A stretch of DNA of 64,000 nucleotides. Origin: Flavobacterium jumunjinense. GTDB taxonomy: Bacteria; Bacteroidota; Bacteroidia; Flavobacteriales; Flavobacteriaceae. A program made the position numbers and the translations under genes. Under the pieces are notes generated by a model. It saw nothing but the letters and a program-made list of their open reading frames with translations, ran no database searches and was not told the DNA's origin. Below are positions 21,034-64,000 of this stretch, one piece after another; positions within the stretch are counted from its first letter, which is position 1, and each line of letters begins with the position of its first letter. The DNA is taken from positions 2,108,001-2,172,000 of the forward strand of contig NZ_CP091285.1 in NCBI RefSeq assembly GCF_021650975.2. Direction: 5' to 3'.

Positions 21034-22290
21034 ATGAGTAATAATAAGAACATGACATGTACTAGAGATTATCTATTAAACATACCTCAAATGCTTTCTG
21101 GAGGAATGTCTGAAAATTGGTTATTAAAGGAGTTAGGTGATGTTCATTGGAATATGATTGCAGATGCGCTAGATTCTAAATCTGATGAGATTATAGATAG
21201 TAATGGAGAACGCTTATATGCTAGTTTCGTTAGATTACAATGGTGTATGAAGTCAAGTTGTTTATATGATTTTAATGAAAACGAAAAAGTTCGATTAAAA
21301 GGCGATTTAGCATTATATGGTAATAAGATGTTTTTTAGTGAAGATGTATTATTGGGAGACGATAAGGAAATTAAAGCTAGCTTAATGTCTGTTTTTTCAA
21401 GTAGAAAATCAGGAAACAATCAGCAATTATCAAAGGGGAAACCGCTTAATGTAAAAAAAATAAAAACGATTGTTTATCAAAATCTACCTGATTTTGCTAG
21501 TGCTTTTTTTAATCTAAAAGGAACTCTTTTTTCGAGTATAAACAATAATGATGGGAATAATAAAAAACAGTTTGAAACAGTAGGACATTGTTTTGATTTA
21601 GAAGAAAAGTGTGGTTTTACTAAGAGCTATGATATAGATCCATATGATGATATTAATGGAGTAGGTTTATTATATTTTGCATCCTATCCAAAAATAAGTG
21701 ATAAATGTGAGCGATATTATTTTCAAGAAAATTATGAAAGAATAGATAAAGAAGATTTCAACTGGGCTGAAATAGGATATTCCTTAGCTAGAGATATTCA
21801 TTATTATGGAAACGCAAATGTTAACGATGAACTTTTGTATGTTTTAGAAAATTACATTATTGAAGAATCTAATACAATAAAATTAGTATCGTCTTTATAT
21901 AGAAAGAAAGATAATAAACTAATTGCAAAAATTTTTACGTTAAAAAAAATAGTATTCCCAATAACTAAAAAAGAGGTTTACCTTGAAAAGGAGCCTAAAG
22001 ACATCTCTAAAATTATTGATAATAGTACAATGGAGATTGATAATGTTACGATCGATAAAAAAACATTAGATAGTTTATTGATATCTTTTTTTTCAAAAAT
22101 GTTTCCCAGTCAATTTTTTACTACAAAATCTGATCTTAGGTCTTTAGGAATAGAATCCATTGTATTTCTTGAGCTATCAGAGTTTTTAAATGTCAACCAT
22201 AATTTATCTGTAAACCCTAGTGACTTCTATGGTTTGTACACTATTGATCAAATTTCAAACAAATTTGTTAAAGGAGTAAATTTATTAGAT
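21034..22290 (+). other. Loading module: LnmK-like acyltransferase/decarboxylase + ACP
   Basis: The first ~320 residues match the LnmK/Pnap_2097 family by the motifs SENWLLKELGDVHW, DINGVGLLYFASYP and YYGNAN. LnmK in leinamycin biosynthesis transfers methylmalonyl to an ACP and decarboxylates it to propionyl-ACP, through an acyl-tyrosine. Here Tyr62 in RLYASF is a candidate for that residue, unaligned. Fused upstream of ACP1 and KS1, it most simply makes the starter acyl-ACP (propionyl, or acetyl from malonyl). Confidence 0.75.
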
Positions 22291-25200
22291 TCTCAGTCTA
22301 CTATTTTAAAAGAAGATGAATTTAAAAAGAACCAAAGTGAAGAGGATATAGCAATTATTGGTGTAGCCTTTAAACTTCCAGGTGGTATCGAAACTAAAGA
22401 GGCATTTTGGAATATTCTTAAAGAAGGGAAAAATGTTATTCAAGAGTTGCCATTTAATAGGTGGAAATGGAGTGAAGACATTGATGTAAATAGTGAACAT
22501 AAAGGAATCAATTTAGGAGGTTTCATGAAAGATGTTACATTATTTGATGCAGACTTTTTTAATATAAGTCCTCTAGAAGCAGAAACAATGGATCCTCAAC
22601 AGAGAAAGTTATTAGAAATTTGCTGGCATTGTTTAGAAGATGCTGGTATTACTAATGATCAATTTAAAGGTAGCAATACAGGTGTATTTGTTGGAGCAAG
22701 TGGTTCAGATTATTCTAAATATATTGATAATGAAAATAGTGTTGCTCATTCTGGAGTAGGAATTTCTACTTCAGTTTTAGCCAATAGAATTTCTCATTTT
22801 TATGATTTAAAAGGGCCTAGTATACAGTTGGATACCGCTTGTTCTAGTTCTTTAGTAGCTCTACATCAGGCTGTTAATTCGATAAGAAATAATGAATGTG
22901 AACAGGCTATCGTTTCAGGAGTAAATATAATGTTACACCCTTTTAATTCACAGGTGTATTATAAAGCAGGAATGTTAAACAAAGAAGGGCTTTGTAGAAC
23001 ATTTGATAAAGATGCTGCTGGATATGTTCGAGGAGAAGGAATTATATCTTTACTTATAAAGCCACTATCAAAAGCCGTGCAAGATCAAGACATTCCTTAT
23101 GCTTTAATTAAAGGTTCTGCTATTAATCATGGAGGATATGCAGGAGGAATTACAGTGCCAAATCCAAATCAACAATCTGCTTTAATTGAAAAAGCATTGG
23201 CAAATGCAAAAATAAAAGCCAAAGATGTAACTTTCGTTGAGGCACATGGAACAGGAACCAAATTAGGAGATCCTATAGAAATAAACGCTTTAAATAAGGT
23301 GTTTAAAAATACAAATAATCTACATAGTTGTTTAATTGGTTCAGTGAAAACGAATATAGGACACCTTGAAGCAGCGGCAGGGCTTGCAGGATTAGTAAAA
23401 GTACTGTTGTCGTTTGAAAAAGAATCTATTCCTCCAATAGCTAATTTTAAAGAATTGAACCCACATATTAATTTATCAAATTCACCACTGATAATTAATC
23501 AAGAGATTAGAAAATGGGAAGTGCCAAATGATGGTAAACGAATCGCTGGAATTAGTAGTTTTGGATCTGGAGGAACTAATGCTCATGTAATTCTCGAACA
23601 AACACCTATTATAGTACAGTCTGAAATAAGTTCAAGTAACAACTATCTTATATGTGTATCTGGTAATACTAACAAGGCTTTGAATACCAATATAGATAAA
23701 CTATTGGAATGGTTAAATAATAATGAAACGGTTGATTTACTATCTATAAGTCATAATTTATTAGTGAGAAGAACTCATCTCTCACATAGAGCTGCTTTTA
23801 TAGTAAGCAATCTAGATGAATTGAAAAATTTTTTAGTTAAAAAGCCTAGAACTTCTGCATCTGAAAAAGAATATTATTCAACTGATTATAATCAAACCAA
23901 TTCACAACCATTATTTATTGAATGGTTTGAAAACTATTTAGAAGGAATAAATAAATATACAGATCTAGAAAAAAATCAGTTGGAAGGTTTAGCAGAACTC
24001 TTTGTAAGGGGATCAAATTTAAGCTGGAAAAAATTGTTTAAAAATTTAAAACCTAAAAGAGAATCTCTTCCTTTTTATGAATTCGAAAAGAATCTTTTTT
24101 GGATTACACCAAACAATAATCAAACCAAAAGAGAGAGAAATAAAAACACTTTCATACATGATAATCAATCTCAATATAATTTACAAGCATTTGTAAGTAA
24201 CTTTTCTGGAGAGGAGTTTTTTTTTAAAGAGCATAAGATAGAGGAGAAGTCAATTCTTCCAGGAGTTGCCTATTTAGAAATGATTAGGTATTGTATTGAT
24301 CAATCTTTTCCAGAGGTGACAAAATCTATCAGAATAGATGAGTTAATTTGGAAAAACCCGATTACAAACAATGAGCCATATGAAATTTATACAGAAATAA
24401 AAGTTGAGGAAGAAGATAAGGTAGTTTGTAATATAATAAATAGGTTAAATAATCAAGAGTATTGTTCGGCAGAGATTCGTTTCAACCAAAAGTCAAAAAA
24501 TGATAAACGAGATATAGAAATCTTACAATCCCAATATGAAGAACACGTAACATCAGATGTAATTTATAGTAGAATGGATGAAAAGGGCTATCATTATGGA
24601 AACAGCTTTAGAACTATAAAAAAACTTTCACTTAGGGAAAATGAGGCTATAGGTATTCTTAAATCGAGTAAATCTGGACAAACTAAATCAGAAGAGCTTG
24701 ATATTCAAATTCTTGATGGAGCTTTGCAAATAGCCATGTATGCCTTTTTTATTTCAAAAGAAAACTCTAAAACAGTTTATCCATTTTATATCGAATCATT
24801 TAGAATTAATGAGTCATTATTAGACTCGGAGGAAGATTTATATGTATATACATACAAGCAAGACGATAAGATACAAATTGAAATAATAAACCAACAAGGA
24901 GATATTTGTTATGAGTTTCATAATATGATTTTTAAATCTCAAGAGCACACAGGTAGTAAAGAAGTAAAATTATATGCTCCAGAAAAAAGGGTTCTTCTTG
25001 AATTAAATACAAAGGGAACTATAAAGAATAGAGTTATCATAGGATATGGAGAACACGAATTTTTGAAAGAGTTAAATTCTTTAGTAATTAATGATGAGAT
25101 TGAAACATCAATTTTTACTCTTAAACCAGAAACTGATATAAAAAACGTCTATAAAGTAGTTAAATCTTTAGTTGCATTACTTAGAGAAATAATAAGAAGT

Positions 25201-28200
25201 AAAGCAGAAAAAACAATCTTTTTCCTTTATAAAAACGAAGTAGGAATTAATTATTCCAATGTGTTTAGTGGTGTATTTAGTTGCTTGTGTCAAGAATATG
25301 AAAACATATCCTTTCAAATTGTAGTCATTGAAAATTGTAGAGAAACGTATTCAGAGATAATAGAAAACCTTACTAAAAGCTTCCATAGATCTAATAAGAA
25401 AATTGTATTGGATAATGGGAAAATGTATGGTTTTAAATGGAAGGAAATTACTAATCAATTACTGATGCCTTGGAAAGATAGAGGGGTTTATTTGATTACT
25501 GGGGGAGCAGGTAAGATTGGCAAACATTTTGGAGAAATAATAGCATCTAAAGTCATCTCTCCAACAATTATATTTATAGGTAGATCAAGATATGATGAAA
25601 TAAGGGAAGAACAAATAAAAGGTTTAATAGAATTAGGAGCGCAAGCAGAGTATAAATCATTAGATATAGGTGATGCAAAACAATTGCTTGAAACGAAAAA
25701 CTACATTCTTTCAAAATTTGGTCAGATTAACGGCATTATACATGCAGCAGGAGTAAATCAAGATGAATTATTTTACAATATAAAAGAAGAATCCATCGAA
25801 AGAGTTCTACATCCAAAAGTAGCGGGTACTATTAATCTAGATACTGTTTTTAAAGAAGAAAAAATAGATTTTATGATGTTGTTTTCTTCAATTATTTCAG
25901 TAATTGGGAATACAGGTCAAACATCTTATGCTGCTGCTAATGGATTTATTGATGATTTTGCAATATACCGAAATCAATTAGTTGAAAAAAAACAGCGATT
26001 TGGAAAAACAGTAGTCATTAACTGGCCTTATTGGATGGATGGAGGAATGAAAATGCCACTAGAAATTCAAAATGAAATTCAGAATAGATATGGTTTAATC
26101 CCTCTTAAAACTGATAAAGCTACAGGAATTATAGATGAAGTTTTATCAGGAAATGAAAGTCAAGTAATGGTTGCAGTAGGAAATCATGATAAATTTTTAG
26201 CTATAATTAATGAAGCTGAAAAAGGGGTATTAATGCAACCTAAAGAAGGAATAGAAGCGATTAATGTTTCAGCGATTATCAAAAAAGTAATTGGTAAAAT
26301 AATTAAAAAAGAATCAGAAGAACTTAATGAGTTAACCCCATTTGATCAGATGGGAATTGATTCTATAATACAAATGAATATTTTAAAAGAGCTTAGTAAA
26401 ACTTTTGGAGAACTATCAAAAACTTTGCTTTTTGAACATGTAAATATAAAAGAGTTGTCGGAATACATGATGAATTCCAATAAACCGATAAATCTAGAGA
26501 CTTTAAAAAAAGAACCAATAAGTAAAGGAGAGATTCTCTCATCAGTTGAATATCCGACAGAAAAAGTAGTTTCTTTTAAAGCAAAACAAGAATATTTTTT
26601 TTCAAAAGTTGAATCTGAGGATATTGCTATTATTGGTTTTAGTGGTAGATTTCCAAAATCAGATTCAGTAGAAGCTTTTTGGGATAATTTACAAAAAGGG
26701 AGAGATTGTATATCATTAATGCCAGATTTTAGAAAAGTTGCAAAAACTAAACAATACTATGGTGGTTTTATAGATGACATTGATAAATTCGATGCATCTT
26801 TATTTAGAATTGAAAATAAAGATGTTGTTCAATTAACTCCAGAAGAGCGATTGTTTTTAGAGATTGCTTGGGAAACCCTTCAAGATGCAGGTTATAATGA
26901 AGAAAGATTAAAAGATATTCAAGACAAAACAAATCAAGGAATTGGAGTTTTTGTTGGATCTATGTATGATCAATACGGAAGCTATTCTCAATCTGAGACA
27001 GGTAGATTAGCTACTAACTGGAGTAATTGGCAAATAGCAAACAGAACATCTCATTTTTTTAATTTCATAGGGCCAAGTCTATTAATTAACACAGCCTGTT
27101 CTAGTGCTTTTTCGGCAATACATACAGCTTGTGAAAGTATTTTGTCGGGCAACAGTAGTATGGCATTAGTTGGAGCGGTTAATTTAACATTAGATCACAC
27201 TAAGTTTTCTGCTTTAGAAAATGCCTCTTACTTAGAAAAAGGAACTAAAAGCAAAAGTTTTGGTGAGGGAACGGGGTATTTACCCGGAGAAGGAGTAGGG
27301 GCAGTACTTCTCAAACCTTTATTAAAAGCGATAGAGGATCATGATCGTATTGATGGAATCATCAAAAGTACAACAATAAATCACTCAGGAGGTAGACTTA
27401 AATATACAACACCCGACCCGAGCTTGCAAGCAAAGTTGATTGAAAAAAGTTTACAAAAAGCGCAAGTTAAAAAATCAGATATAGGGTATATAGAATGTGC
27501 TGCAAATGGATCAGAATTAGGCGACCCAATAGAGATTGCCGCTTTGAAATCAGTTTTTAATAAAGAGCAGTCAATAAGTAAAATTGTTTTAGGAGCAGTT
27601 AAAGCTAATATTGGTCATTTAGAAGCAGTTTCTGGAATTTCCCAAATAATAAAAGTATTGCTACAATTTAGACATAATACTTTGGTTCCCTCAATTAATT
27701 CTTATCCTTTAAATAAAGCAATATCTCTAAAACAAACACCATTTAAAATCCAAAATAGTACAGAGGTTTGGCCAAAAAGTCTTCCGAAAATGAGTATGAT
27801 AAATTCTTTTGGTGCGGGAGGATCTTATGCCAATATAATTCTAGATAGAGCAGAACCGTATAGTGAGCATGGGAATCAAAACATAAATTTAAATTATTTT
27901 ATTTTCTCTGCACATAGTAAAAACAGTTTGCAGAATTATCTAAAAAAGATAAAAACCTACCTGTTGAATGAAGATGTTGATTTACCGTCTTTATCAGCAA
28001 CACTCATTAAAATTAGTAGAGATTTATCTTTTAAAGTGGGTATTCAAGCAGAAAGTAAATCGATTTTAATAAAAAAAATAACGTGGTTCTTAGAAAATTT
28101 TAGCGATTCTAATCAAGATGAAATTTATTATTCTAAATCCATGAAAATAAAAGAAAACAATTGTCAAGATTCTTTATTAGTTAGATGGATTGAGGATGGT

Positions 28201-28401: not shown

Positions 28402-29860
28402 ATGAAAATCATGATCCCAGAAACCCAATTATATTACCAAATTCAGAATAAGGAAATATCTAAACAAGAAGCTATTGCTAATATGAAATTCTGGAAAGAT
28501 CGTGGAAATGATTTTTCTTATGATTATAGCGAGTCGTATCTTAAAGATCATAAGGTTTTTGAAAAACATGTCTTACTAGGAGTAACTCATCCTAGCATTA
28601 TGATTGATTATTTGTTTTCCATTTATCCAATGAATGATGTTTGTAGTCTTACAAATATTTCATTTATAGAACCAGTGGTTATAGAACCAAATGAATCAGT
28701 AAAAGTAAAGATTTTATCAACTCCTTTAGATAATAAATTAGAGGCAATATATACATCAGAATCAGACCAAGATTGGAAATTGACAGCTAGAGGAACATGG
28801 AAAGAGATTAATGATTTTACTGAGGAAAAAATCACAATTCCTAAAACTGAAGTATATGAAGATATGCATAAATATTATTTCAATAACCCTTCCTCTTTTG
28901 TACAATTAGGGAAAGCATACCATACTTTTGATAAAATATTTCTTCATGAAGGAGACATTTATGCTAAAATTAGAATTGATGCAGAGATAGAAAATCGAGA
29001 ATATATACATCATCCTTTAATTTCTAATAGCATTTTCCTAACCATCCTACCACAATTAAAATTAAATGAAGACCATGAAGGTTTTTTACCTTTTGGGATT
29101 GGCAGTTTAACTGTGAAAAAGGGAATTGTAGATAAAGAATGTTGGATAAAAGTTCGATTACTAAAAAATAATGAAGAATTAATACTCTTTGATGCTGAGG
29201 TTTTTTCAGAATCTGGAGAGGTTGCTGCGATCTATAAAAAGTGTGCATTGAAGCGGTTACGTAATAAAGATTTATTCGAAAATAAAACATACCTTCCTAG
29301 TATAGTAGATAGCATCCAAGTTTATGTAAGTAGTAAAATAGGAAGACGTGATTTGGAAGTGAAAGATCAGGAATCATTAAAGAAAATTAATGTATTCGAT
29401 TTTCTTTCACAATTAGAGCTAGATAGTTTAATAAAAAGTATTTCTGACGAGATTAATATCGAGCTGTCTTCACAATTATTTCTTGAATATAATACACTTG
29501 GCAAATTTAGTAACTATCTATATGAAGTACACGGGAATGAATTCAGTAAATTTTTAAAAGAAGAAAAAGAAGAAATTCCAAAAATAGTAAAATTTGAGAC
29601 AATAGAGTCTCAATCTCTTTCTACCGATTATATAGAAGAATACCTACAAATAAAGTTACAACAGGTAACCAAAAAAGACAAAAAATTTAATAAGAAGAAT
29701 AACCTTATGGACATTGGGTTGTCTTCTGCTCAGCTTATTAATTTAACAAATATTATTGAAAATGAAGTAGGGATAAAATTAGAAGCCACTTTATTATTTG
29801 AATATCCCAATATCTTAGAATTGTCAAAATATTTTTTTCAGGAAAACTTCAATGCATTTT
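28402..29860 (+). other. Split-module part: enoyl-isomerase-like DH + tandem ACPs
   Basis: A DH double hotdog in which the HxxxGxxxxP motif reads HKVFEKHVLL (His50 kept; Pro replaced by Leu59) and the Asp of HPALLD is Asn209 (HPLISN). Loss of that Pro and Asp-to-Asn are the changes described for trans-AT double-bond-shifting enoyl isomerases (rhizoxin, bacillaene systems). Two ACPs follow, the second with GLSS in place of GxDS. Confidence 0.7.
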
Positions 29861-32800
29861 CAAAGTTAATAGGTGTAAAACATGAAAGATTAGAACAGAA
29901 AGCGATACCAAAAAAACAATTTTCACATCAATTCAAAGAGTCTTATAAGGAAAATACCATTGATGATGTTAATGAAGATGATATAGCAATTATTGGGATG
30001 CATGGACGTTTTGCCAATTCTGAAAACCTAGAGGAATTTTGGAATCATTTGGTAAATCAGACAGATCTGATGAGTGAAATACCAATTGATCATTGGGATT
30101 ATAGACCTTGGTTTACAGCGTCACAAGAGAAAGATAAAATTTATAGTAAATGGGGTAGTTTTATTAATAATGTAGCAGAATTTGATGCAGAATTTTTTAA
30201 TATATCTCCGAGAGAAGCAGAATGGATAGATCCACAATTAAGACTTCTTTTGCAAAGTATATATCATACTGCAGAAAATGCGGGTTACGCTAATAAATTT
30301 AAAGGTACAAATACAGGTGTTTTTGTAGGTGCTTGTTTTCATGATTATTTAGACAAAATTGCAGAATTGAATTTGCCAGTAGATCCCTATGTTGGAACTG
30401 GAAATGTACAAACGGTTCTAGCGAATAGAGTTTCCTTTACATATAACCTTAATGGCCCAAGTATATCAGTGGATACAGCTTGCTCTTCTTCATTAGTAGC
30501 CTTACATCAAGCTTGTCAAGCAATAAAAAATAATGAATGCAAAATGGCTTTTGTAGGAGGGGTCAATCTCTTACTTTCTTCATGGCACTATCGTTATTTT
30601 TGTAGTATTGGAGCATTATCTCCCTCAGGTAGATGTCATACTTTTGATGCTAAAGCAGATGGTTATACACCAGGAGAATGTGTTGCTAGTATATTAATTA
30701 AACCTCTTAAAGAAGCTCTTAAAGATGGAGATACCATTCATGCAATTGTAAAGGGGACTGCGTCTTTACATGGGGGATATACACCTTCACTTACGGCTCC
30801 AAGTGTTTCAGGAGAAGAAAATGTAATTGTAAAAGCATGGGAGGCATCAGGAATTTCTCCTCAAACAATATCTTATATAGAAGCACATGGAACAGGAACA
30901 AAATTAGGAGACCCTATCGAAGTAAAAGCATTAAAAAAAGCATTTTATAAATACACAGATGAGGAAGAATTTTGCACGATTGGGTCTGCTAAAGGGAATA
31001 TAGGACACGCAGAAGGAGCAGCAGGAATTGCAGGGCTTATCAAAGTTGTTCTACAGATGAAAAATAAAACAATACCAGCCTTGCCAGCATTAGAGAATAT
31101 TAATCCAATGCTTGAGTTAAAAAATTCCGCATTGCGTATTAATAAAAAAAATGAATTTTGGAAAGTTCCAAATGGCACACCTCGTAGAGCTGGTATTAGC
31201 TCATTTGGTTTTTCAGGTGCTTATGCACATACTATCATAGAAGAGTATAATTTAGGAGAAAATGAATTACTAGAGAGTTATAATCCGGTGTGTATTATTC
31301 TTTCGGCAAGAGGAAAAGATCAGTTGGTAAAAAAGATTGAAAACCTATACCAATATTTAAAGACTCATAAAGAAATTTCTCTTTATGATATAGCTTATAC
31401 ATTGCAAGAAGGACGTGAACAAATGGAGTTTCGTACTGGGTTTGTCTCTAGTTCAATTCCAGAAACAATACAATATTTAGACGAATTGTTAAAAGAGTTT
31501 AATGAGGATAGCTATGCCTTAATTACCGATGAAATTTTCAATATTGAAACACCAATAAATTACCCATTAGATCAATTACTCAAAAAATGGTCGGATGGAG
31601 CTACAATAGAGTGGAAAAGTTTATACAAGTCAAATCCAAGAATTATTGACCTTCCAGGATATCCTTTTCAGAGAAAAAAATACTGGATAAAAGAGGCAAT
31701 AACTATAAATGATGAAAGTGTTTCAATGAGAGACACAAATCTTTTGAAACCTATTGGGGATAATGAGTTTAAACTGATATTTCAAAAAGAAGATTTTTTT
31801 ATATCAGATCATAAGGTAAATGGTAAAGCATGTGTGCCTGCAGTTATGTTTGTTGATTTGATATTGAGGTTATTAGATGGTTTGGGAGATGTGGAATTAG
31901 AAGAAATTATATGGATTAAACCTATTACAGAGGATTTAATAGGAACCGATTTAAGGATAAAAATAGAAGATACTACTGTAAGAGGAAGCCAAAAATTTGT
32001 TTTTAAAGACATAGAAAATACGATTTTTTGTAAAGGGAGTATTTTTATAGGTTCTTCTAAGCTGGAACTTCCTCTTGATATGAGTACTAGTACCGAAGAA
32101 GCCTTCAAAGGTGTACCAAAATGGGACAAGAATAGTATTTATAATTTTTTTAATACATCGGGACTTAATTACGGGAGTAATCATCAAGGTCTTCATGAAG
32201 TTTTTATTGATGATGAAAAAATAAAGGCAATTATTAAACTACCTAAAGAACTAAAAAACACAAAAAATAATTTTAAACTACATCCAGGCATAGCTGACCC
32301 GATTTTGCAAGCTACTGTAATTTTATTAAATCAGCATCGAATTTTTGACCCGAAAAAGCATAAAACTCCTATGCCTTATTCTGTTTTGAAAATCAGTGGG
32401 AATACTGATTTACCTGAGGTTGTAGAAGTAGAGCTATCTATTCATTCTAAAATACAAAATGCTTCAGGGCTTTCTCCAGAAATAAATATTTATGTATTTG
32501 ATGAGAATAAAAAGTTATTGATGATATGGCTAGGATTAAGAGTTTATATATTAGAAAAATCAGAAGAAAAAATAAATTGGAAAACAATATCTTTTGAAGA
32601 GAAAAAAGAGGATGTAAAAGAACCTGTTTTAGACTTTCAATCTAGGGTTATAGTAGGAATTGACTGTCCGTCAATATTGAACAATGTAAAGAAAAAAAAT
32701 CCCGAGATAGATATCTTTAAGATTACTACTAACGAATGTCTTTCTGCCAATTTTTCTCAAGTAGCTTTAGAGCTTTTTCAAATTTTAAAGGAAAAATATG

Positions 32801-51688: not shown

Positions 51689-51707
51689 TTTAGAAGAGAA
51701 CTATATC

Positions 51708-54700: not shown

Positions 54701-57700
54701 AATAAATAGTAAAGAGGACAAGCAGGATCATTTGATTCAAAATGAGTTAATTCAAATTTGGGAAGAAATATTAGAAGTTTCTGGAATAGGAATAGAAGAT
54801 CGTTTTTTAGAAATAGGAGGAGACTCTATTTTGGCAACAGTACTAATAGATAAAGTAAACCTAAAGTTTGAAACGGAATTTGATGCATCTGATTTATTCC
54901 AATACTCAACCATTTCTCTTTTATCTGAAAAAATACATAAGACGGGACTATTGAATAATCTTCCTAGCAAAAAAGAACATAAAAAAACATCAGAGGCTAA
55001 TGAAGATAGTAGTCTGTACGAAGATTCGTTAGCTATTATAGGGATGTCTTGTACATTTCCAGAAGTACAAAATATAAGAGATTTTTGGAATTTATTAATT
55101 GATGAAAAAGAGACATTTCGTTTTTTAGAGACCGAAGAACTTAAAAAAATGGAAGTTTCGGAATCTGTAATTAAAAACCTAAATTTTGTTCCTTTTCAAT
55201 CATCTATTGCTAGCAAAGAATATTTTGATGCTCCATTCTTTAAAATTTCTAAGCGTGATGCGGGATTTATGGATCCACAGTTAAGAATGCTTTTAGAACA
55301 TGCTTGGCATACTATTGAAGATTCAGGATATAAGACCGAAGATATTAAGGATACAGCGGTTTATATTTCATCAGGAAATAATTTCTATCGCTCTACTTTA
55401 CCTGAATTTTCTGATGAGCAAACAGGCGTTTTAGAGCATTCAGATCAGTATGTATCTTGGATATACGGACAAGGAGGTACTATTCCTACTATGATATCTT
55501 ATAAATTAGGGTTAGAAGGACCAAGTCTCTATTTGCATTCTAATTGTTCTTCTTCTTTGTCAGGATTATATACAGCTTATCAAAGTATTATGAGAGGTGA
55601 GTGTAAACAAGCACTAGTTGGAGCAGCAAATGTTGGGGTAGTTAACAGTCCAGGATATATTCATCAAAATGGTTTAAATTTTTCAAGTGATGGTCATTTA
55701 AAAGCTTTTGATGCTGACGCTGACGGAATGGTTGGTGGAGAAGGAGTGACAATGATTTTGGTAAAGAAAGCATCTGAAGCAATAAAGGATAAGGATCCTA
55801 TTTATTGTTTGTTAAAAGGAATAGCACTTAATAATGATGGTAACGACAAAGCAGGATTTTATGCTCCTAGTTTTAATGGACAGAAGAAGGTAATACAAAA
55901 AGTATTGGATGAAACTGGAATTAACCCAGAATCTATATCCTATGTCGAAGCTCATGGAACAGGAACTAAACTAGGAGATCCGATAGAATTCAATGCGTTA
56001 AGTGAAGTGTATAAGAATTATACAAATAAGACTAATTATTGTGCAATAGGATCTGTAAAAACCAATTTAGGACATGTAGATACAGCAGCTGGACTAGCAG
56101 GAGTTATTAAAATTGCACTCAGTATGTCTAATCAGCAATTGCCTGCAACTCTAAACTTTAAAAACCCAAATCCTCAATTAAAAATAGAGAATTCTCCATT
56201 TTATATTTCTAATGAAACGAAATCTTGGATGAGAAATGGAACACCATTAAGAGCTGCAATTAGTTCTTTCGGAATAGGAGGTACTAATGGACATGCTATT
56301 TTTGAACAGGCTAATATTGAGACGATAAGTTCGGAAAATGAGCAGAAAGCTTACCCAAATCAACTCATTTTACCAGTTTCCGCGCTTAATAAGGAAAGTT
56401 TAAGGGTTTATGTGCAACACTTAAAGACTTTTATTTGTCAAAATCAATTAGTTGAAAATCAGAATGCAGATAAAAAAAATGATAAAATAGCGAAACAAAT
56501 AAAACAGTATTTAGCTCCATTATTAAATGTAGAGGAACAAGAAATTGATTTGTTACAATTATTTGAAGATTATATAAGTGACCTTTATTATTTGGAAAGT
56601 TTAAGTGTTTGGATATTTGATGTTTATGGCTTAAAGATTGGAAGCAAAGAGCTATATAGTCTAAATACATTAGAAAAAGTAATAGAAAAAATCGGTGATA
56701 AAATTAAACCAACAGCTGTTATTTCAATTACAAAAGAAAAATTAGCTTCTTTAGCATATACATTTCAAAAAGGAAGAAATGAGATGTCTTGTAGAGTTGC
56801 ATTTGTTTTTAAAGAAGTAGAAGAATTATTAAAACAGTTTAATGACTTTCTAAAAGAAGAGAATCTATTAGGAGTTTATTCTGATAAAGTTGTAGGATTA
56901 ATAGGTAAGGAAAATCACGAAATTTTTTCTTTAGAAGAAAAAACCGCATTAGAATGGGTTAATGGCGAGTCTGTAAATTGGGAAAATTGCTGGAAATCTA
57001 CTGATAGAGTTATTAGGATATCAGCTCCTGGATATCCTTTTGCAAAAGTAAAATTTGAACTCCCATCTTTTAAAGAGAAGAAGAAAATTGTAAGAGATCA
57101 AATGGTAACGCATCCGTTACTCCATGAGAACAACTCTGGTTTTGACAACATCTCTTTTAGTTCCAATTTTTCAGGAGAGGAACATTTTCTTAGTGATCAT
57201 GTGATAAATGGTCAAAAGATTTTACCAGGAGTTGCTCATTTGGAGATGGCTTTACAGGCCTATTTTAAAGCGACAACCTTACCAGTACAACCTTGTTTGT
57301 TAACGAATATTTTTTGGGTTAAACCTATTGTTCAAAAATCAGAAAAACAGAAAATAACCATTTCATTGTCAAAAGAAAATGAGGGGAATTGCGAGTTTTT
57401 TATAAACACTATTTCTGAAGATAATAACATTCAAAATAGTAAAGGATATATAAAAAAAATAGAGGATTCTTTGCAAAGTATTCCACCTGTCAATATTGAA
57501 GGTTTTAAAGAAAAAGGTACAGATGTAATAGAAGGAACAAAGATTTATGATGCTTTTTTAAAAAATGGGGTAACTTATGGTACTTCTCATCAAGTAATTC
57601 AAAAGTTATGGATTAAAGGCACTGAAGCCTTAGTACTTTTGAATGTTAAAAAAGAATATTCAAATTCGTTATATCAGTTACATCCTTCTATTATGGACGG

Positions 57701-60700
57701 AGCTTTTCAGGCAGTTATTGGTTTTAAGTTGCAATCTAATGATCAATCGATAGCATTACCTTTTGGAATTCGTAATTTGAAAGTGTTTAAAAAAACTAAA
57801 GATGTTACATGGGCTTATATCAAAGAGTTTAGTGCAAATAACGGTAACATATATGATATTTGTTTGTTAAATCAACAGGGAGAAGTGTGTGTTGATATTA
57901 AAGGATATCAAACTAGAATAATCGGAAAAGGTATAAAGAACAAGAATGAACAAGAAATTTTAGTCGATAAAATAAAACAGAATAATGACTATTGTTTGAT
58001 ACCTACTTGGGAATTGGCTTCATCTATTTCAGGACAGGAATTTCTACCAGACATCTGTCTTATATTTGGAGAGAATACGATTTTAGAAAACTCTTTAAAA
58101 AATCGTGGTTTTAGAGTGTTTTTGGTTAAGAAAACATTAAATCTAAATGATTTTAGAGAAATTATAGGTACTGAAAGGATACAAAATATTTCCTGCATTA
58201 TTCCTTATACGAATAATATAGAATCTGAAACAGATAATAGTCACTTTTTAGTAGATAATACATATTACCTTATTAAGGCATTCCTAAAAGAAGGATATGC
58301 TGGAAAAAAACTTAGATGGAGTGTCTTTACAGAGCGAGCTTTTATGACTACCAAAGAAGATAAAATAAATGCTATACCATCTGCTTTACATGGTCTTTTT
58401 GGAGTTATACAAAAAGAATATCAAAACTGGGATATTAATTTATGTGATATGGAGTTTTTAGATGAGAATCTAAAAAACATTAAGGAGCTTCCTTTAAATA
58501 AGCAAGGAATTACTTGGGCATATAGAAATAATAGTTGGTACAAGCAAAAATTATCAAAAGCATCACAAGATTTTATTAAAAATAACGACACAACTATACT
58601 AAACGATAATAAGGTGCTTGTTATTATTGGAGGAGCAGGTAATATTGGACGTAAATATTCGAAATATTTATACGATACTTATCAGGCTAAAATTGTATGG
58701 ATTGGTCGACAAATAACAGAAAAGGTGTCTTTTGAAGGTTTGGACTTTACTCCTTTTTATGTGCAAGCAGATATTACAAAGTATCAAGAATTAGAATGTG
58801 CAATAACTACTATTCAGTCAGAAATAGGATCTGTATATGCGATAATACATTCCACTATGGCATTGGCTGATTCTAGTTTTGAAAAAATGACCGAAAGTCA
58901 ATTTCATACGGCTTTAGATAATAAAGTTATTGGACTTATTAATATAGGTAAAATTATTAAGGAAATATTGCCAGAATGGTTGCTCTGTTTTTCGTCGATA
59001 GCTTCTTATGTTAGGGTACCAGGTCAGGCTAATTATACAGCTGGATGTGTTTTTACAGATCAGTATGCCTTACAAATAGAACAACAATATGGTGTGAAAA
59101 CTAAAATAATTAATTGGGGATATTGGGGACATTCAGAAGAGTATGATAGTAATAAGGTTCGTGAAAAGATAGAAAAAAATGGTGTAGCGATTTTGGCCCC
59201 AGCTATGGCATTGCAGTTTCTAGATGGATTTATGAAGGTAGATCATAAGCAAGTTGCTTATATAAAAATGTCTGAGGATCTTATAAACTCTAAGTTAGGG
59301 AAAGAATTAATGGAATCTCCTTCTCATATTGAAGTATTCGAAAGAAAATCTAAAAGTAGTAATGAACAAAAAATGAAGTTACAAAAAAACGTTTTAGAAC
59401 CTGAACTATTAATGATTCAAACGAAAAATTATTTGCTAGAATCTATTGCCACAGTCCTGCGAATGGAAAAAGAAGAAATTGATACTTCAGAAGCCTTGGA
59501 GGCATATGGGTTAGATTCGATTTTGGTTGTTCAGATAGCAAATGAGTTAGGCACAATATTTCCAAATATTAACACAACAATATTTTTTGAATACCAAACA
59601 ATTGAAGAAATAACTACTTACTTAATTACCAATTATGAAGAAGAAGTTAGTGAATTATTTAGTCAGAATAACAATGATATAACTATAGAAAAAGAAACTG
59701 AAGGTATAGAGATAAAAGCTGAGTCAATACCAGTGATTAATGATGATAGAATTATAGAGGAAGAAAATAAAACAGTTCTATTAAATAAAGTAGTTGATTG
59801 GTTAAAAGAACAAATTTCGGATATAGGAGGAATAGCCTTTTTAGAAATAGATATAAACGATCCATTAGATTCATTTTCTTTAGATTCAGTTCAAGTAGTT
59901 TCATTAATTGAAAACTTAAATAAAATTGTAGACGAGGTTTCTACCACAATATTTTTTGAAAGCGAAAACTTAAAAGAATTAGCAGAATCACTACTAGTAA
60001 ATAGAAAAGACCAACTAAAATCTTTTTTTGGGAATTCAACTAGTCAGGAAGTACTGAGAATAGAGAAGAAAGAGATACAGAAAATTATACCTACGAATCA
60101 GAAATCAGAGATTAATGCTCTTAAAATTGAAAAAAGCAATGTGTTAGAAACAGATGTTGCTATAATAGGAGTAACGGGTAAATACCCTTTAGCAAATGAT
60201 TTGGAAACATTTTGGTCAAATTTAAAAGAAGGAAGAGATTGTATAACTGAGGTTCCTTTAGACCGTTGGGATGCTGATTTGTATTATGATAAAGACAAGA
60301 ACAATCATAAAAAAAGTTATGGTAAATGGGGAGGATTCTTATCAGATATAGACCAATTTGATCCTTTATTTTTCAATATTTCTCCTTCCGAAGCAGAAAT
60401 TATGGATCCTAAAGAGCGTATCTTTCTTGAAACTATTTGGGAGTTATTTGAAAAAAATGGAATTACTCAACAAAAGTTAAAACAACAATATAACTCTATG
60501 GTAGGAGTATATGTTGGATCAATGTATCAACATTATCATTGTTTCTCTTCCGATGTGTTAAGAGAAGCGGTTGTTTCAATGTCTTGCCATAGCTCAATTG
60601 CTAATAGAGTTTCTTATTTTTTTAATCTTCAAGGGCCTAGTATAGCTATAAACACAATGTGTTCTTCTTCACTTATCGCTATAGATATGGCATATAAAGC

Positions 60701-63700
60701 TTTGTTACTAGGAGATTGTGAATTAGCTATTGCAGGAGGAGTAAATTTATCCTTACACCCAAAAAAATACATTGGATTAAGTGCTACTAGAACTATGGGT
60801 AGCCATGTTGATAGTAGAAGTTTTAGTGAAGGAGATGGGTATCTACCAGCCGAAGGAGTAGGTGCGGTATTGTTAAAACCTCTTTCAAAAGCAATTGCAG
60901 ATGGAGACACAATCCTAGGGGTAATTAAATCTTCTTCATCTAATCATGGCGGTAGATCCAATGGGTTTGCTGTGCCAAATCCTAAGGCACAAGTAAAATT
61001 AATTGAGACTAATTTTAAGAAATCAGGAATAGATCCTAGAACTATCAGCTATGTTGAATCTGCTGTGAATGGATCAAATCTAGGTGACCCTATAGAAATA
61101 GCAGCTCTAAATAAAGCTTTTGAGATTTTCACACCGGATAAACAGTTCTGCGCTATAGGTACTGTAAAATCTAACATTGGTCATGCTGAAGCGGCTTCTG
61201 GAATATCGCAGTTAACGAAGGTATTATTGCAATTAAAACATAAAACTTTAGTCCCTACAATTAAAACAGAACCGCTAAACAAGCAAATTCGTTTAGAAGA
61301 AACTCCATTTGTACTACAAAAAGAATTAAAAAAATGGAATAGACCTATTGTAAGTTCTGTTAATGATAAAGGAGAAATAATAGAAAAAGAATACCCTAGA
61401 AGAGCAACAATAAGTTCTTTTGGAGCAGGTGGATCAAATGCTCACTTAATTATTGAAGAGTTTAACACTAATATAGATGCGGAAAATGATTTTGAAAAAA
61501 ACGAATCTCTTCACGAAGAAAAACTTCCTAACATCTTTGTGCTTTCTTCTCGTTCAAATATAGAGTTAAGAAGATGGCTGGAAATGCATTATGAATTCAT
61601 GTCAGAATATCCAGAAATTCTTGTTACTGATATCGCATTTACCTTGAAAACAGGAAGAGAACTAATGGATTATAGAATAGCGATTACTTTTGATTCCAAA
61701 GAACATTTAAAAGAAACTATCTCTAAGGTTCTTAAAGAATCAAATTGGAATGATATGAAAGAATTTTCAAATGTGTTTTTAACAAATAAAAAAGCGACTA
61801 ACAATATTGTAAACCGGTTATTTAAAGATGATACTGGAAATGAAATTCTTAACCTCTTATTAGAAAAAGGAGATTTGAATAAAATAGCTGTTTTTTGGGC
61901 AAGTGGTAGTTTCATTCCTTGGTTATCAATTTACGATAAAGATAAATTACCAAATATTGTTTCATTACCGTCCTATCCTTTTCAAAAAAAGCGCTGTTGG
62001 ATAAAAAGTGAAGAAGATTTAGCTGTTAATAATGTAAAAGAAGAGCATTCTAAATTACTTAGTCAAAATGCAGAAAAGAATATAGTTATCCCAAATTCAG
62101 ATGTTAGTCTTTCAAGTTCTGAAAAAAAAATAGTTGTTACTGGTCATGTAAAAGATCTTTTGAAAGAAGTATGGCAAGAGGTTTTAGGAGTAGAAAATAT
62201 TGAATGGGATGATAATTTTCAAGCATTAGGAGGAGATTCAATAATGTTAACTCATATCATTTCTAGAATAAAAAAGGAAGTTCCATTTGATGTCAATGTT
62301 ACAGAGTTATATCAAAGATCAACACTAGAAGAGATGGCTGTCTTTTTAGAAGAAATATTTGAAAAGCACGAATTAGAAACAGAACTTTTAAGTTTTTCCA
62401 CAGTAAGAAACCAAGGGCAAATTATTCCCGTTTTAGATAATAAAATAAAACCTTCTTTATCATTTGCACAACAACGTTTGTGGTTTTTAGATCAGATGGT
62501 AAAAAATTCTCCAGCATATAATGTTGTAATGGCATTGCATACCGAAGGGAATATTGATAAAGAACTATTACAAAAAAGTTTTGAAAATATTATTTATAGA
62601 CATGAAACATTGCGCACTTCTTTTAAAAGCGAAAAAGGAGAGCCTTATCAGCATGTTGCCACTAGTGTACCTAATGAGATTATTTGGAAAGACCTTACAT
62701 CAATCCCAAAAAGCGAGCGTGAACAGGCTTTTGAGGAATATACAAAAGAGGAAGCACGCCATATCTTTAATTTAGAACAAGGAGATTTATTAAGACTAAC
62801 TATTTTTAAAATAGAGAAAGACGAACATGTTTTAGTGTTAAATGCGCATCACATAATAATTGATGGATGGTCTGTGAATATCTTTTTTAGTGAGTTGTTT
62901 AAAAATTATTCTCAATACATCAAAGGAGAAATACCATCATTAGAAAAACTACCTATACAATATACAGATTTCTCTATTTGGCAACGAATGTGGTTACAAG
63001 GAGAAGAATTGGAAACACAATTGAGCTATTGGAGAGGAAAATTAGGGAGTATCAATACAATGATTGAATTACCATTAGATAACCCTCGCCCTCCTGTTCA
63101 AACTTTTCAAGGAGGAAGTACACAACTAGAATTGCCAGTAGAGTTATTAAATAAATTAAGAGCAACTGCTAAAGCATATCAAGTTACTTTGTTTGAATTA
63201 CTTCTAGGCGCTTTCAAAATTATTTTGCATCGATTTAGTGGCCAAAAAGAAATCATTATAGGAACTCCTGTAAATAATCGAAATAGACTAGAAATAGAAG
63301 GTCTTATAGGTTTTTTCGTAAATACCTTGGTTATTAAAACTAATCTTGAAGGAAACCCTTCATTTAAAGAGTTCTTAAAGAGACTCCAAAATGAATTAAA
63401 TGGGGCTAAAATGCATCAGGATTTACCGTTTGAGCAACTTGTTCAAGAGTTACAACCAGACCGTAATATGAGTCAAAATCCATTGTTTCAAGTTTGCTTT
63501 AACATGTTGATAACTCCTGAGATTAATAATACAAATATTCATTTTAAGAAAATACACGGAGTTAGAAATGATACGTCTAAGTTTGATTTATGGGTAAATG
63601 TTATTGATCAAAAGGAAAAAATGACTCTTGAAGTAGAGTATAATTCTGTTATCTTATTTAAAGATACTGTTATTCGTTTTATGAATAGTTACCAAAATCT

Positions 63701-64000
63701 ATTGGAAGAAATTGTTAAAGATGGAGACAAAAACATTGGGGAGCTATTAATATTAGATAATAAAGAACAAAAAAAAATAATCAAAAAAAGTAGTGGAGAC
63801 AAAGTTGATTATCAAAAAGATATTTGTTTGCATCAGATAATAGAAGCACAAGGCTTAAAAACACCAAATGCCATAGCAGTATCTTTTGAAAACAAACAAT
63901 TAGATTATCAGGAATTATCCCAGTTAACGAATCAGTTATCACATTATTTGATAGCGGAAGGAGTTCAGTTAGAATCATTTGTTGGAGTATGCTTAGAACG
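51708..64000 (+). CDS. Hybrid NRPS/trans-AT PKS megasynthase (3' end outside window)
   Basis: Starts at ATG 51708, 19 bases after PKS3, and stays open to the right edge (4097 codons; frame checked at each domain motif). Order: docking helix (IISEYKEGKISTSTLK), C1 (HHLVCDG, His162-Asp167), A1 (~480-990; YTSGSTGNPKG), PCP1 (Ser1040 in GGDSI), KS8 (~1107-1535; Cys1280 in SNCSSS, His1416, His1456), ACP-like insert (~1580-1665), DH (HVINGQKILP, His1831; Asp1997), KR (~2302-2540; Tyr2443), ACP (Ser2604), ACP (Ser2727), KS9 (~2816-3250; Cys2985, ESAVNGS so His is Ala3119), PCP2 (Ser3511 in GGDSI), C2 (HHIIIDG, His3714-Asp3719), and the start of A2 (~4035 on). It should insert one amino acid, add one unsaturated ketide, then a second amino acid. 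No AT; no release domain within the window. Confidence 0.93.
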   Translation, partial: MITLKQIISEYKEGKISTSTLKEKLIKYKKIEEGKEYPLSTSQKGLWLLHKQSLLVAKYNVPLVLRFDKAVTETALKNACKLLVKVHPLLGASFSLDLPQYKIPANPYIDFQYLDQQGKTEKEIIKLMQEITDYPLDITKAPVRFRYIHNENSKTYFLMTIHHLVCDGTSLVVLFQTLMNILSSNDDFEKPLLVPYNEFVGWEKNYLNSVEAKQHQKYWKEKLQNLPDVISLHKDFYKNPDQIKYKGGILQRELPDQISQKIKIFCTKNQLSIASFLLGGYQLLLRKYTAQNDIIIGVPSLGRSEEEYNNIVGYFINMIPVRLLIQSNSDIKEHLKELQYTVMEGIDNAMYPFPLMVKDQEGTIGQSELPIFQFTFAYQNFIRGGSANSLTKQYKDDFDVSILKEVHQYSNYELAFELGETDNSFDITAKYNSINFSPETIDQIVNHYIKILAEIVNDEVKMIADISLVSEKEREIIEGANNTKVSYNSQKCIQQYIGSKAINSPNEITLLEQQGKQKTNYQIQQEVNKIASCLIQNGVLSGDSVGIYMNRSANLITTVLGVLAAGGVFVPLSPDFPEERINFIIKDANIKVLIFDSDTKSKTEVFSSNVQLVINSSKIQQDQELYTLPFCSEKDRAYIIYTSGSTGNPKGVPVTHQSILNTLHYLEENFPLRKNDNYILKTNYVFDVSLSEIFGWLIGEGTLIIPNKGVEKSPAQLLDFIHKFKITHINFVPSLLKVFVNHVKKKDGILLCNSLKYILVAGEAFPVDLVKESIGLFKDHCQVINVYGPTEASIYASSFNCSIESVKTLNTPIGLPISNTELYVLDIDNKEAGLGIPGELCLAGTGVVSSYLNREELSASKFCKNTFSKKYNDFYKTGDWVKRLSNGQIEYLGRIDEQVKIRGYRIELGEIEVIIREVSTVEDVVCLVKEVHGVKQIWAYVQSLNTNLPTVLYKFLSDKLPLYMIPSQFVIVSAIPITVNGKIDRKKLIDIRPNINQTINSKEDKQDHLIQNELIQIWEEILEVSGIGIEDRFLEIGGDSILATVLIDKVNLKFETEFDASDLFQYSTISLLSEKIHKTGLLNNLPSKKEHKKTSEANEDSSLYEDSLAIIGMSCTFPEVQNIRDFWNLLIDEKETFRFLETEELKKMEVSESVIKNLNFVPFQSSIASKEYFDAPFFKISKRDAGFMDPQLRMLLEHAWHTIEDSGYKTEDIKDTAVYISSGNNFYRSTLPEFSDEQTGVLEHSDQYVSWIYGQGGTIPTMISYKLGLEGPSLYLHSNCSSSLSGLYTAYQSIMRGECKQALVGAANVGVVNSPGYIHQNGLNFSSDGHLKAFDADADGMVGGEGVTMILVKKASEAIKDKDPIYCLLKGIALNNDGNDKAGFYAPSFNGQKKVIQKVLDETGINPESISYVEAHGTGTKLGDPIEFNALSEVYKNYTNKTNYCAIGSVKTNLGHVDTAAGLAGVIKIALSMSNQQLPATLNFKNPNPQLKIENSPFYISNETKSWMRNGTPLRAAISSFGIGGTNGHAIFEQANIETISSENEQKAYPNQLILPVSALNKESLRVYVQHLKTFICQNQLVENQNADKKNDKIAKQIKQYLAPLLNVEEQEIDLLQLFEDYISDLYYLESLSVWIFDVYGLKIGSKELYSLNTLEKVIEKIGDKIKPTAVISITKEKLASLAYTFQKGRNEMSCRVAFVFKEVEELLKQFNDFLKEENLLGVYSDKVVGLIGKENHEIFSLEEKTALEWVNGESVNWENCWKSTDRVIRISAPGYPFAKVKFELPSFKEKKKIVRDQMVTHPLLHENNSGFDNISFSSNFSGEEHFLSDHVINGQKILPGVAHLEMALQAYFKATTLPVQPCLLTNIFWVKPIVQKSEKQKITISLSKENEGNCEFFINTISEDNNIQNSKGYIKKIEDSLQSIPPVNIEGFKEKGTDVIEGTKIYDAFLKNGVTYGTSHQVIQKLWIKGTEALVLLNVKKEYSNSLYQLHPSIMDGAFQAVIGFKLQSNDQSIALPFGIRNLKVFKKTKDVTWAYIKEFSANNGNIYDICLLNQQGEVCVDIKGYQTRIIGKGIKNKNEQEILVDKIKQNNDYCLIPTWELASSISGQEFLPDICLIFGENTILENSLKNRGFRVFLVKKTLNLNDFREIIGTERIQNISCIIPYTNNIESETDNSHFLVDNTYYLIKAFLKEGYAGKKLRWSVFTERAFMTTKEDKINAIPSALHGLFGVIQKEYQNWDINLCDMEFLDENLKNIKELPLNKQGITWAYRNNSWYKQKLSKASQDFIKNNDTTILNDNKVLVIIGGAGNIGRKYSKYLYDTYQAKIVWIGRQITEKVSFEGLDFTPFYVQADITKYQELECAITTIQSEIGSVYAIIHSTMALADSSFEKMTESQFHTALDNKVIGLINIGKIIKEILPEWLLCFSSIASYVRVPGQANYTAGCVFTDQYALQIEQQYGVKTKIINWGYWGHSEEYDSNKVREKIEKNGVAILAPAMALQFLDGFMKVDHKQVAYIKMSEDLINSKLGKELMESPSHIEVFERKSKSSNEQKMKLQKNVLEPELLMIQTKNYLLESIATVLRMEKEEIDTSEALEAYGLDSILVVQIANELGTIFPNINTTIFFEYQTIEEITTYLITNYEEEVSELFSQNNNDITIEKETEGIEIKAESIPVINDDRIIEEENKTVLLNKVVDWLKEQISDIGGIAFLEIDINDPLDSFSLDSVQVVSLIENLNKIVDEVSTTIFFESENLKELAESLLVNRKDQLKSFFGNSTSQEVLRIEKKEIQKIIPTNQKSEINALKIEKSNVLETDVAIIGVTGKYPLANDLETFWSNLKEGRDCITEVPLDRWDADLYYDKDKNNHKKSYGKWGGFLSDIDQFDPLFFNISPSEAEIMDPKERIFLETIWELFEKNGITQQKLKQQYNSMVGVYVGSMYQHYHCFSSDVLREAVVSMSCHSSIANRVSYFFNLQGPSIAINTMCSSSLIAIDMAYKALLLGDCELAIAGGVNLSLHPKKYIGLSATRTMGSHVDSRSFSEGDGYLPAEGVGAVLLKPLSKAIADGDTILGVIKSSSSNHGGRSNGFAVPNPKAQVKLIETNFKKSGIDPRTISYVESAVNGSNLGDPIEIAALNKAFEIFTPDKQFCAIGTVKSNIGHAEAASGISQLTKVLLQLKHKTLVPTIKTEPLNKQIRLEETPFVLQKELKKWNRPIVSSVNDKGEIIEKEYPRRATISSFGAGGSNAHLIIEEFNTNIDAENDFEKNESLHEEKLPNIFVLSSRSNIELRRWLEMHYEFMSEYPEILVTDIAFTLKTGRELMDYRIAITFDSKEHLKETISKVLKESNWNDMKEFSNVFLTNKKATNNIVNRLFKDDTGNEILNLLLEKGDLNKIAVFWASGSFIPWLSIYDKDKLPNIVSLPSYPFQKKRCWIKSEEDLAVNNVKEEHSKLLSQNAEKNIVIPNSDVSLSSSEKKIVVTGHVKDLLKEVWQEVLGVENIEWDDNFQALGGDSIMLTHIISRIKKEVPFDVNVTELYQRSTLEEMAVFLEEIFEKHELETELLSFSTVRNQGQIIPVLDNKIKPSLSFAQQRLWFLDQMVKNSPAYNVVMALHTEGNIDKELLQKSFENIIYRHETLRTSFKSEKGEPYQHVATSVPNEIIWKDLTSIPKSEREQAFEEYTKEEARHIFNLEQGDLLRLTIFKIEKDEHVLVLNAHHIIIDGWSVNIFFSELFKNYSQYIKGEIPSLEKLPIQYTDFSIWQRMWLQGEELETQLSYWRGKLGSINTMIELPLDNPRPPVQTFQGGSTQLELPVELLNKLRATAKAYQVTLFELLLGAFKIILHRFSGQKEIIIGTPVNNRNRLEIEGLIGFFVNTLVIKTNLEGNPSFKEFLKRLQNELNGAKMHQDLPFEQLVQELQPDRNMSQNPLFQVCFNMLITPEINNTNIHFKKIHGVRNDTSKFDLWVNVIDQKEKMTLEVEYNSVILFKDTVIRFMNSYQNLLEEIVKDGDKNIGELLILDNKEQKKIIKKSSGDKVDYQKDICLHQIIEAQGLKTPNAIAVSFENKQLDYQELSQLTNQLSHYLIAEGVQLESFVGVCLE
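51820..54960 (+). other. NRPS module: C1-A1-PCP1
   Basis: C1 has a complete HHxxxDG. A1 has core motifs YTSGSTGNPKG, FDVSLSEIF, NVYGPTEASIY, YKTGDW and NGKIDRK. Lining up by eye with GrsA gives the ten-residue code D-V-S-N-L-A-V-I-Y-K. This does not equal any code I know; partial likeness to Cys or small-residue codes is not enough for a call. PCP Ser1040. Confidence 0.8.
55029..60010 (+). other. Module 6: KS8-(ACP-like)-DH-KR-ACP-ACP
   Basis: KS8 follows a PCP, and its active site reads LHSNCSSS rather than the usual DTACSSS, with both His present. Perfect DH motif (HVINGQKILP) with Asp1997; KR Tyr2443 in YTAGC; two ACPs (GLDSI, SLDSV). Expected: unsaturated ketide unit on the aminoacyl chain. 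Confidence 0.8.
60150..62370 (+). other. KS9 (non-elongating) + PCP2
   Basis: KS9 keeps Cys2985 in TMCSSS and the second His (NIGHAEAAS) but has ESAVNGS instead of EAHGTGT. A usual post-KS linker (SLPSYPF) and then a GGDSI carrier follow with no catalytic domain between. It probably only relays the chain to C2. Confidence 0.75.
62450..64000 (+). other. NRPS module C2-A2 (A2 truncated by window edge)
   Basis: C2 shows FAQQRLWFLDQM, HHIIIDGWS, IIGTPVNNR and LPFEQLVQEL, the normal C-domain motifs. A2 begins at about 63810 (YQELSQLTNQLSHYL) and is cut before its substrate-binding core, so its amino acid cannot be predicted. Confidence 0.85.

Follow-up and report, generated by a model that had tools for sequence, protein, structure and literature searches.

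The 64,000-nt stretch of the Flavobacterium jumunjinense chromosome analysed here, hereafter the window, holds nearly all of a trans-AT PKS/NRPS assembly line that is encoded by four genes, A to D, and is complete and unbroken. We propose, with a probability of roughly 0.6, that this line and the accessory genes behind it make a polyene-peptide that is released as an N-acyl-N-methylserine beta-lactone.

The genome is 4.68 Mb in size and 99.99% complete. Sequence past the end of the window was joined from the same chromosome and is numbered in window-equivalent coordinates. The open reading frames of the line occupy positions 21034-28401, 28402-39237, 39260-51688 and 51681 onward, all on the plus strand, as are the domains and accessory genes described below. 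The line spans 21034-67643, with reading frames unbroken over 46.6 kb, and reaches about 52 kb with the accessory genes (to 72883); the end of the window cuts it 3.6 kb short of its finish. Domains were placed by Pfam first and then by HMMs trained on the domains of the line itself, which show the order but are not independent proof of domain identity. Gene content, domain order and active-site residues were thus read directly: the line has nine KS, six KR, four DH, two DH-like (opening genes B and C), two C-MT, two C and two A domains, and PF22336, the KS flanking subdomain or RhiE-like linker, is present in all four proteins. The first-pass annotation had described a trans-AT PKS/NRPS line in four collinear genes with nine KS domains, two NRPS modules and two C-MTs, and the reading frames, the Pfam matches and the own-domain HMMs bear out each of these counts. 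Its statement that the line lacks an AT also holds, both AT matches in the genome falling outside the line: one, at 69.2 kb, is the trans-AT, and the other, at 98.0 kb, is a stand-alone frame of 291 aa. KS domains gave 17 matches in the genome, nine in the line, all within the window, and eight elsewhere in frames of 371-422 aa. The line thus combines KS modules without an integrated AT, non-elongating KS domains and a split bimodule, features of trans-AT PKSs.

Alignment of the nine KS domains showed that the Cys is present in all of them and that the HGTG His is kept in six; it is replaced in KS2 (ECAANGS), KS5 (ETNGSGT) and KS9 (ESAVNGS), which look non-elongating. Because six KS domains keep the His, six chain-extending steps are expected, and KS1, 3, 4, 6, 7 and 8 would elongate with malonyl units supplied by an AT-ER protein encoded behind gene D. 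We infer the substrates, the order of the chemistry and the ring size as set out below.

Gene A (21034..28401) encodes 2455 aa in the order LnmK-ACP-KS1-DH-KR-ACP-KS2(0), with KS1 at 22336..23607, in which Cys-His-His is kept, and KS2 at 26611..27855. The LnmK-type acyltransferase/decarboxylase loading domain (21061..21948) matched TIGR04098 (LnmK) over residues 14-302 with 144.5 bits against a cut-off of 100. By this membership, the fused LnmK-type domain, with a predicted activity of propionyl transfer from methylmalonyl-CoA, would load the first ACP with a short acyl starter, probably propionyl. LnmK (PDB 4hzn-4hzp, 6x7l) resembles the domain through the same family membership; Tyr62 of gene A lies opposite Tyr62 of LnmK, which we take to be its catalytic residue, in an unscored stretch of -1.7 bits, the scored alignment covering only residues 199-290 (E 0.006). 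Unlike LnmK, which reportedly is free-standing and acts at another point of its pathway, the line's domain is fused to an ACP at the line start. LnmK domains above the cut-off occurred in 3 of the 397 family-sample genomes and in 5 of the 398 genus-sample genomes, the latter sample being drawn from a larger group, and each count includes the line's own genome. The four other carriers in the genus differ from the line as far as the stretches compared show. Two of them (G400 and G779, loci L018-L023) have a different, polyene-like trans-AT line, with a 4552-aa LnmK-ACP-KS-ACP-ACP-ACP-ACP-DH-KS protein followed by further KS-DH-KR modules. The third (G586, locus L024), with LnmK-ACP-KS-DH and then KR-ACP-KS-ACP-C-A, has a third LnmK-started hybrid line, and in the fourth (G519) the LnmK frame stands alone on a contig of 5 kb.

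The product of gene B (28402..39237; 3611 aa) has the order DH-like(EI)-ACP(degenerate)-ACP-KS3-DH-KR-ACP-KS4-KR-ACP-KS5(0). Enoyl isomerases are expected to have the DH-type Asp replaced, and the DH-like domain that opens gene B (28489..29271) has its catalytic Asp replaced (HPLISNS), suggesting an enoyl-isomerase-like domain; unlike it, the DH-like domain opening gene C keeps HPTLLD. Together with KS2(0), this domain would shift the first double bond to the beta,gamma position. The first ACP of gene B (29311-29529) lacks the Ser by alignment, while the second keeps it. By the KS alignment, KS3 (29971..31251) and KS4 (34240..35559) are elongating and KS5 (37849..39072) is not; KS4 would form the first half of a dehydrating bimodule, KS4-KR-ACP-KS5(0)-DH, completed by the DH of gene C. 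Gene C (39260..51688) encodes 4142 aa in the order DH-ACP-KS6[pseudo-ACP]-DH-KR-cMT-ACP-KS7-KR-cMT-ACP-ACP. Both of its KS domains, KS6 (40454..41749) and KS7 (46556..47824), appear elongating in the alignment, and alpha-methyl groups would be added by both modules. The KS7 module has a KR and a cMT and lacks a DH, so an alpha-methyl-beta-hydroxy acyl group would stand ahead of A1.

Gene D runs to 67643 from either TTG 51681 (5320 aa) or ATG 51708 (5311 aa), and the record of the protein from this genome (P0035) places its start at the latter. Its order is C-A1-PCP-KS8[pseudo-ACP]-DH-KR-ACP-ACP-KS9(0)-PCP-C-A2-nMT-PCP-TE. Reading the codes of both A domains by motif anchors gave DVSNLAVIYK for A1 (53193..54587), for which a small residue is our guess. 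The code region of A1 in the line (FDVSLSE, VINVYGPTEASIY) differs from that of both homologues (FDISLTE, VINIYGPTEASLW), so a change of amino acid within the line's family is possible. Solved KS domains were compared by sequence with KS1, KS3 and KS8 and by model with KS6. KS8 (55017..56315), elongating by alignment, was nearest to 6mhl (578 bits) and 5elp (574 bits), the next scores being 498 bits, from a single chain matched in two stretches, and 347 bits. These are bacillaene KS 12 and bacillaene module 1, both of which we take to act after NRPS modules, which fits KS8 taking an aminoacyl chain. By sequence, no comparably clear hint came from KS1 or KS3. Bacillaene synthase is a trans-AT system like the line, and its KS 9 (6mhk) was nearest to the KS6 model; its domain order and release are said to differ. 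KS9 (60144..61466) and the C2 condensation domain (62433..63785) precede A2 (63837-65210, of which the window holds 63837..64000). The A2 code, DVWHFSLVDK, presumably fits serine and is much alike in two homologues, and an N-MT sits inside A2, ahead of its C-terminal part. Thus one amino acid would come from A1, the KS8 module would extend it to a gamma-amino-alpha,beta-unsaturated unit, and KS9(0) would hand the chain to the last module, which would add N-methylserine.

These assignments agree with the order of chain units proposed in the first-pass annotation, including a beta,gamma-alkene, which fits because KS2 lacks the HGTG His and the next DH-like domain lacks the Asp. To that chain we add LnmK-type loading, the non-elongating role of KS2, KS5 and KS9, and an end consisting of an N-methylated serine (by code) and release by a Cys-type TE. 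The expectation of more beyond the window was correct as regards the rest of gene D (A2, N-MT, PCP and TE); there are no further PKS modules or KS domains.

KS6 and KS8 each carry an insert of about 100 residues in the flanking subdomain, behind its first helix. In the KS6 insert (41942..42244) the Ser of the DSx motif is lost (GLDVF), and in the KS8 insert (56478..56768) it is lost as well (ISDLY); by alignment, the phosphopantetheine Ser is missing in all five copies of the insert that were compared. A profile of the five copies matched an ACP profile, built from the ACPs of the line and seven homologous proteins, with a probability of 96.8% over 71 columns in hhalign, as against 65.5% for a PCP profile. 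The best AlphaFold model of the insert, from five rows, was helical and of modest confidence, with a pLDDT of 66.6, the other four models having 41.0-52. Its best Foldseek match was VirA ACP5b (E 7.4e-3, TM 0.64/0.73); no Foldseek match reached E 0.001, and most of the 50 rows listed were carrier proteins or complexes with one by title. These data suggest that both inserts have an ACP fold, and we refer to them as pseudo-ACPs.

A shared-word search of 5.8 billion proteins returned P0033 and P0034 for the KS6 insert and P0035 (the line's own protein), P0036 and P0037 for the KS8 insert, the latter search also giving three proteins that matched over 14-21% of the query. In 40 proteins and the open reading frames of six related loci, the five-copy HMM scored 120-141 bits in five source or near-equal proteins and at most 22.5 bits elsewhere, several of these weaker hits being at true ACPs. 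Each of 29 KS-to-DH gaps without the insert measured at most 193 residues. When the KS6 subdomain was compared with solved PKS chains, matches started at query residue 112 or later, beyond the bundle of the insert, which starts at about residue 32. The pseudo-ACP was absent from three genomes of the genus of G195. It was found in 2 of 395 genomes of the order sample (the line's own and a 19-bit partial match in a 0.2-Mb genome) and in 1 of 395 of the phylum sample, again the line's own. Within the searches made, a predicted serine-less carrier fold in a KS flanking subdomain was thus found only in the line's family. To our knowledge there is no precedent for a pseudo-ACP at this place, and the portions of the literature consulted on flanking-subdomain insertions and on carrier-protein-like domains with KS yielded none. 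Our guess is that the pseudo-ACP is a docking piece.

Behind gene D, on the same strand and with gaps of less than 100 bases, lie genes for a P450 (67674-69122), the AT-ER protein of 754 aa (69220-71484), a PPTase (71481-72179) and a GloB/SolJ-like metallo-hydrolase (72182-72883). The AT part of the AT-ER protein matched the fabD model with 325.6 bits (cut-off 260.9), and the ER part is of the PfaD type (TIGR02814, 600 bits, cut-off 449). The absence of an ER, as first described, is true of the four genes, whereas a PfaD-type ER is fused to the trans-AT, whose gene begins 5.2 kb past the end of the window. The predicted alkenes fit the domains, and some may be reduced in trans. It is possible, though we doubt it, that the trans-ER reduces at least one predicted alkene, and this would be compatible with beta-lactone release. 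The fusion of the ER to the AT speaks for such reduction, as does the restriction of the pseudo-ACP within the line to KS6 and KS8, both in modules with DH and KR, which would be the possible sites. Against it, DH and KR are likewise found in the modules of KS1 and KS3, which carry no pseudo-ACP, and an unused ER may be retained.

The TE at the end of gene D has the nucleophile motif GHCVG, a GXCXG motif with Cys, which is identical in all three sequences compared, the line's own included. Among 17 matches to solved structures at E<=0.01, ObiF1 (6n8e) came first (E 1.2e-21, 80.5 bits), a distant match. It was followed by 6vap (62.6 bits), a type II TE with a Ser nucleophile (GHSMG), and by 8w2c (52.1 bits), which is presumably the SulM TE, given its Gln-Cys-Asn motif; RifR was also among the matches, with GHAMG in the structure, which we read as a mutant. 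The last module of ObiF1 uses a beta-hydroxy amino acid, as that of gene D presumably does by its A2 code; ObiF of obafluorin biosynthesis reportedly has neither a PKS part nor an N-methyl. In the sequence alignment, Cys1146, Gly1173, Asp1254 and His1284, which the available text of the ObiF1 paper names for the ObiF1 TE (PMC6668435), lie opposite C5148, G5175, D5257 and H5287 of gene D, giving the line's TE the Cys, the position-II Asp, the His and the Gly of the obafluorin enzyme.

According to the parts of the sources seen, Cys together with Asp at position II is tied to closure of a four-membered ring (PMC6668435, PMC11298585). Asp at position I is the usual arrangement in NRPS TEs, and of those with known structure only ObiF1 and SulM have it at position II, both closing four-membered rings, a beta-lactone and a beta-lactam, respectively (PMC11298585). 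Each trait alone is seen elsewhere, and what matters is their combination: Cys occurs with a position-I Asp in AB3403, and a position-II Asp is also present in RifR and RedJ, which are hydrolytic TEs of type II (PMC11298585). The His-Cys-Val of the line speaks against a SulM-type beta-lactam TE, which is marked by Gln-Cys-Asn at the nucleophile (PMC11298585). The ObiF1/SulM-type triad on a serine-type last module thus predicts that the serine hydroxyl attacks its own thioester on the Cys-type TE, which would free an N-acyl-N-methylserine beta-lactone. Should A1 use alanine and no predicted alkene be reduced, the calculated formula of this product is C24H34N2O5 (430.247 Da), to which every reduction in trans would add 2 H and hydroxylation by the P450 16 Da. 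This reading rests on few cases, two NRPS TEs being known with the triad in the part of the literature consulted. The substrates differ as well: ObiF1 and SulM act on short peptides, ObiF on a 2,3-dihydroxybenzoyl amino acid (PMC6668435), whereas the line would present a long acyl chain with a methylated serine nitrogen.

Lipodepsipeptides of the rakicidin/vinylamycin type combine an N-methyl residue and a vinylogous amino acid with an alpha-methyl-beta-hydroxy acyl group. These groups match the predicted units of the line, in which the KS7 module without a DH would provide the alpha-methyl-beta-hydroxy acyl ahead of A1, and the TE could instead close a larger depsipeptide ring through that beta-hydroxyl. 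We consider such a ring unlikely, given a TE triad of the ObiF1/SulM type in place of the position-I Asp usual for NRPS TEs. Simple hydrolysis to a linear N-methylserine acid has a still smaller chance of being correct. It draws on the matches of the TE to hydrolytic TEs of type II, RifR among them, in which the Asp has the same position, and on the GloB/SolJ-like metallo-hydrolase, which may also open a lactone; against it, the type II TE 6vap has Ser, while the line's family keeps Cys in all three sequences. That the cluster is decaying and makes no product is highly improbable: a carrier domain in gene B seems degenerate and three KS domains lack the His, but KS(0) domains sit where trans-AT lines use them, the frames are intact, and the domains of A, C and D are conserved in homologues with 51-88% identity.

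Beta-lactone release also fits the conservation of the Cys-type TE among relatives of the line. We take three proteins (P0002, P0034 and P0036) to derive from one metagenome contig. Its line matches A, C and D in domain order, keeps the pseudo-ACPs and the Cys-TE, is 67% (A) and 71% (C) identical to the line described here, and differs in its A1 code. A second relative, P0003, is by its NCBI name a protein of Aquimarina aquimarini, and P0037 is probably on the same contig. The A. aquimarini line shares LnmK loading, KS1, KS4, KS5 and all of gene D, pseudo-ACP and Cys-TE included, and is without the block ACP-KS2-EI-ACP-ACP-KS3-DH-KR2. In P0003 a KR1-like domain (71%) is followed directly by an ACP that resembles the ACP behind KR2 (85%) and then by a KS4-like KS (90%). 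The 70-residue linker in P0003 retains the KR2 C terminus together with the linker that follows it, giving a local score of 115 against the KR2 tail (maximum of 500 shuffles, 60), and five other KR tails scored at the shuffle level. The simplest reading of these alignments is that the shorter Aquimarina line arose from the longer one by deletion. The linker of a second short line, P0004, has no KR2 scar, and that line may represent a separate event. The Aquimarina scar shows a natural cut point in a trans-AT line, between the end of a KR and the ACP that follows.

A scan of genome contigs with gene A gave 17 stretches, none of them a relative, and a scan of the same contigs with P0003 gave one, a 25% match in a Bacteroidetes bacterium bin (L033); neither scan found a close relative of the line. 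A plasmid search with nMT-PCP-TE returned 1083 records of generic NRPS, none of at least 60% identity. Matches to the TE at E<=1e-10 occurred in 2 of the 355 phylum-sample genomes, one of them the line's own. The GC content of the line (0.29-0.32) equals that of its surroundings, and its composition gives no sign of transfer. An empty-site test for recent insertion looked in 21 genomes, the line's own among them, for a gene from either flank. Both genes were closely matched in five relatives (G397, G403, G405, G407 and G408), but on separate contigs or some 0.5 Mb from each other, which leaves the insertion site unreadable there. Upstream of and divergent from the line, an ABC transporter ATPase and a DUF5687 membrane protein are encoded at 17348-19560; the latter matched in 13 of the 21 genomes and therefore probably lies outside the cluster. 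Elsewhere in the window, an acetyltransferase, an SbnF-like (IucA/IucC-type) synthetase and a MATE exporter are encoded consecutively at 258-4096, in what looks like a separate NRPS-independent siderophore operon. Positions 6806-9763 encode a protein of 985 aa in which a stretch resembling mycosin (subtilase) is combined with a sorting tail for type IX secretion.

The portions of the literature searched contained no description of the cluster or its product, and the accessible part of PMC12181424 held nothing on the line. Like the line, the solanimycin cluster has NRPS beside a trans-AT PKS, and it also encodes a P450 and a SolJ-type metallo-hydrolase. A solanimycin-type system, considered for the P450 and SolJ-like genes, was ruled out by the domain orders of SolF, SolG and SolH as given in the text available; SolE is AT-AH, versus the AT-ER of the line, and the order of SolA lay outside the comparison (PMC9765074). 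Material consulted on serine beta-lactones and on trans-AT lines with a beta-lactone and a TE offered no precedent.

Trans-AT PKS clusters are rare in Flavobacteriaceae: in the part of a survey of 2,680 genomes that was available, they made up 0.50% of clusters and fell in four genera (PMC10734526). One trans-AT polyketide of the family, cuniculene, comes from Aquimarina (PMC9323603, as excerpted). The most interesting part of the line described here is its end, past the window. That the product combines an N-methylserine beta-lactone with a gamma-amino-alpha,beta-unsaturated amide, and that the KS6 and KS8 pseudo-ACPs, which cannot take a phosphopantetheine, also serve as permanent docking pieces, for example for the AT-ER protein, is a conjunction that we put forward as a long shot. 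If true, one molecule would hold two electrophiles, the beta-lactone and the unsaturated amide, and docking at the pseudo-ACPs would direct trans-acting reduction or extension to chosen modules. With a Cys-type TE acting on a serine-type module, the product is predicted to carry a covalent warhead, and this would make it easy to seek and to test.
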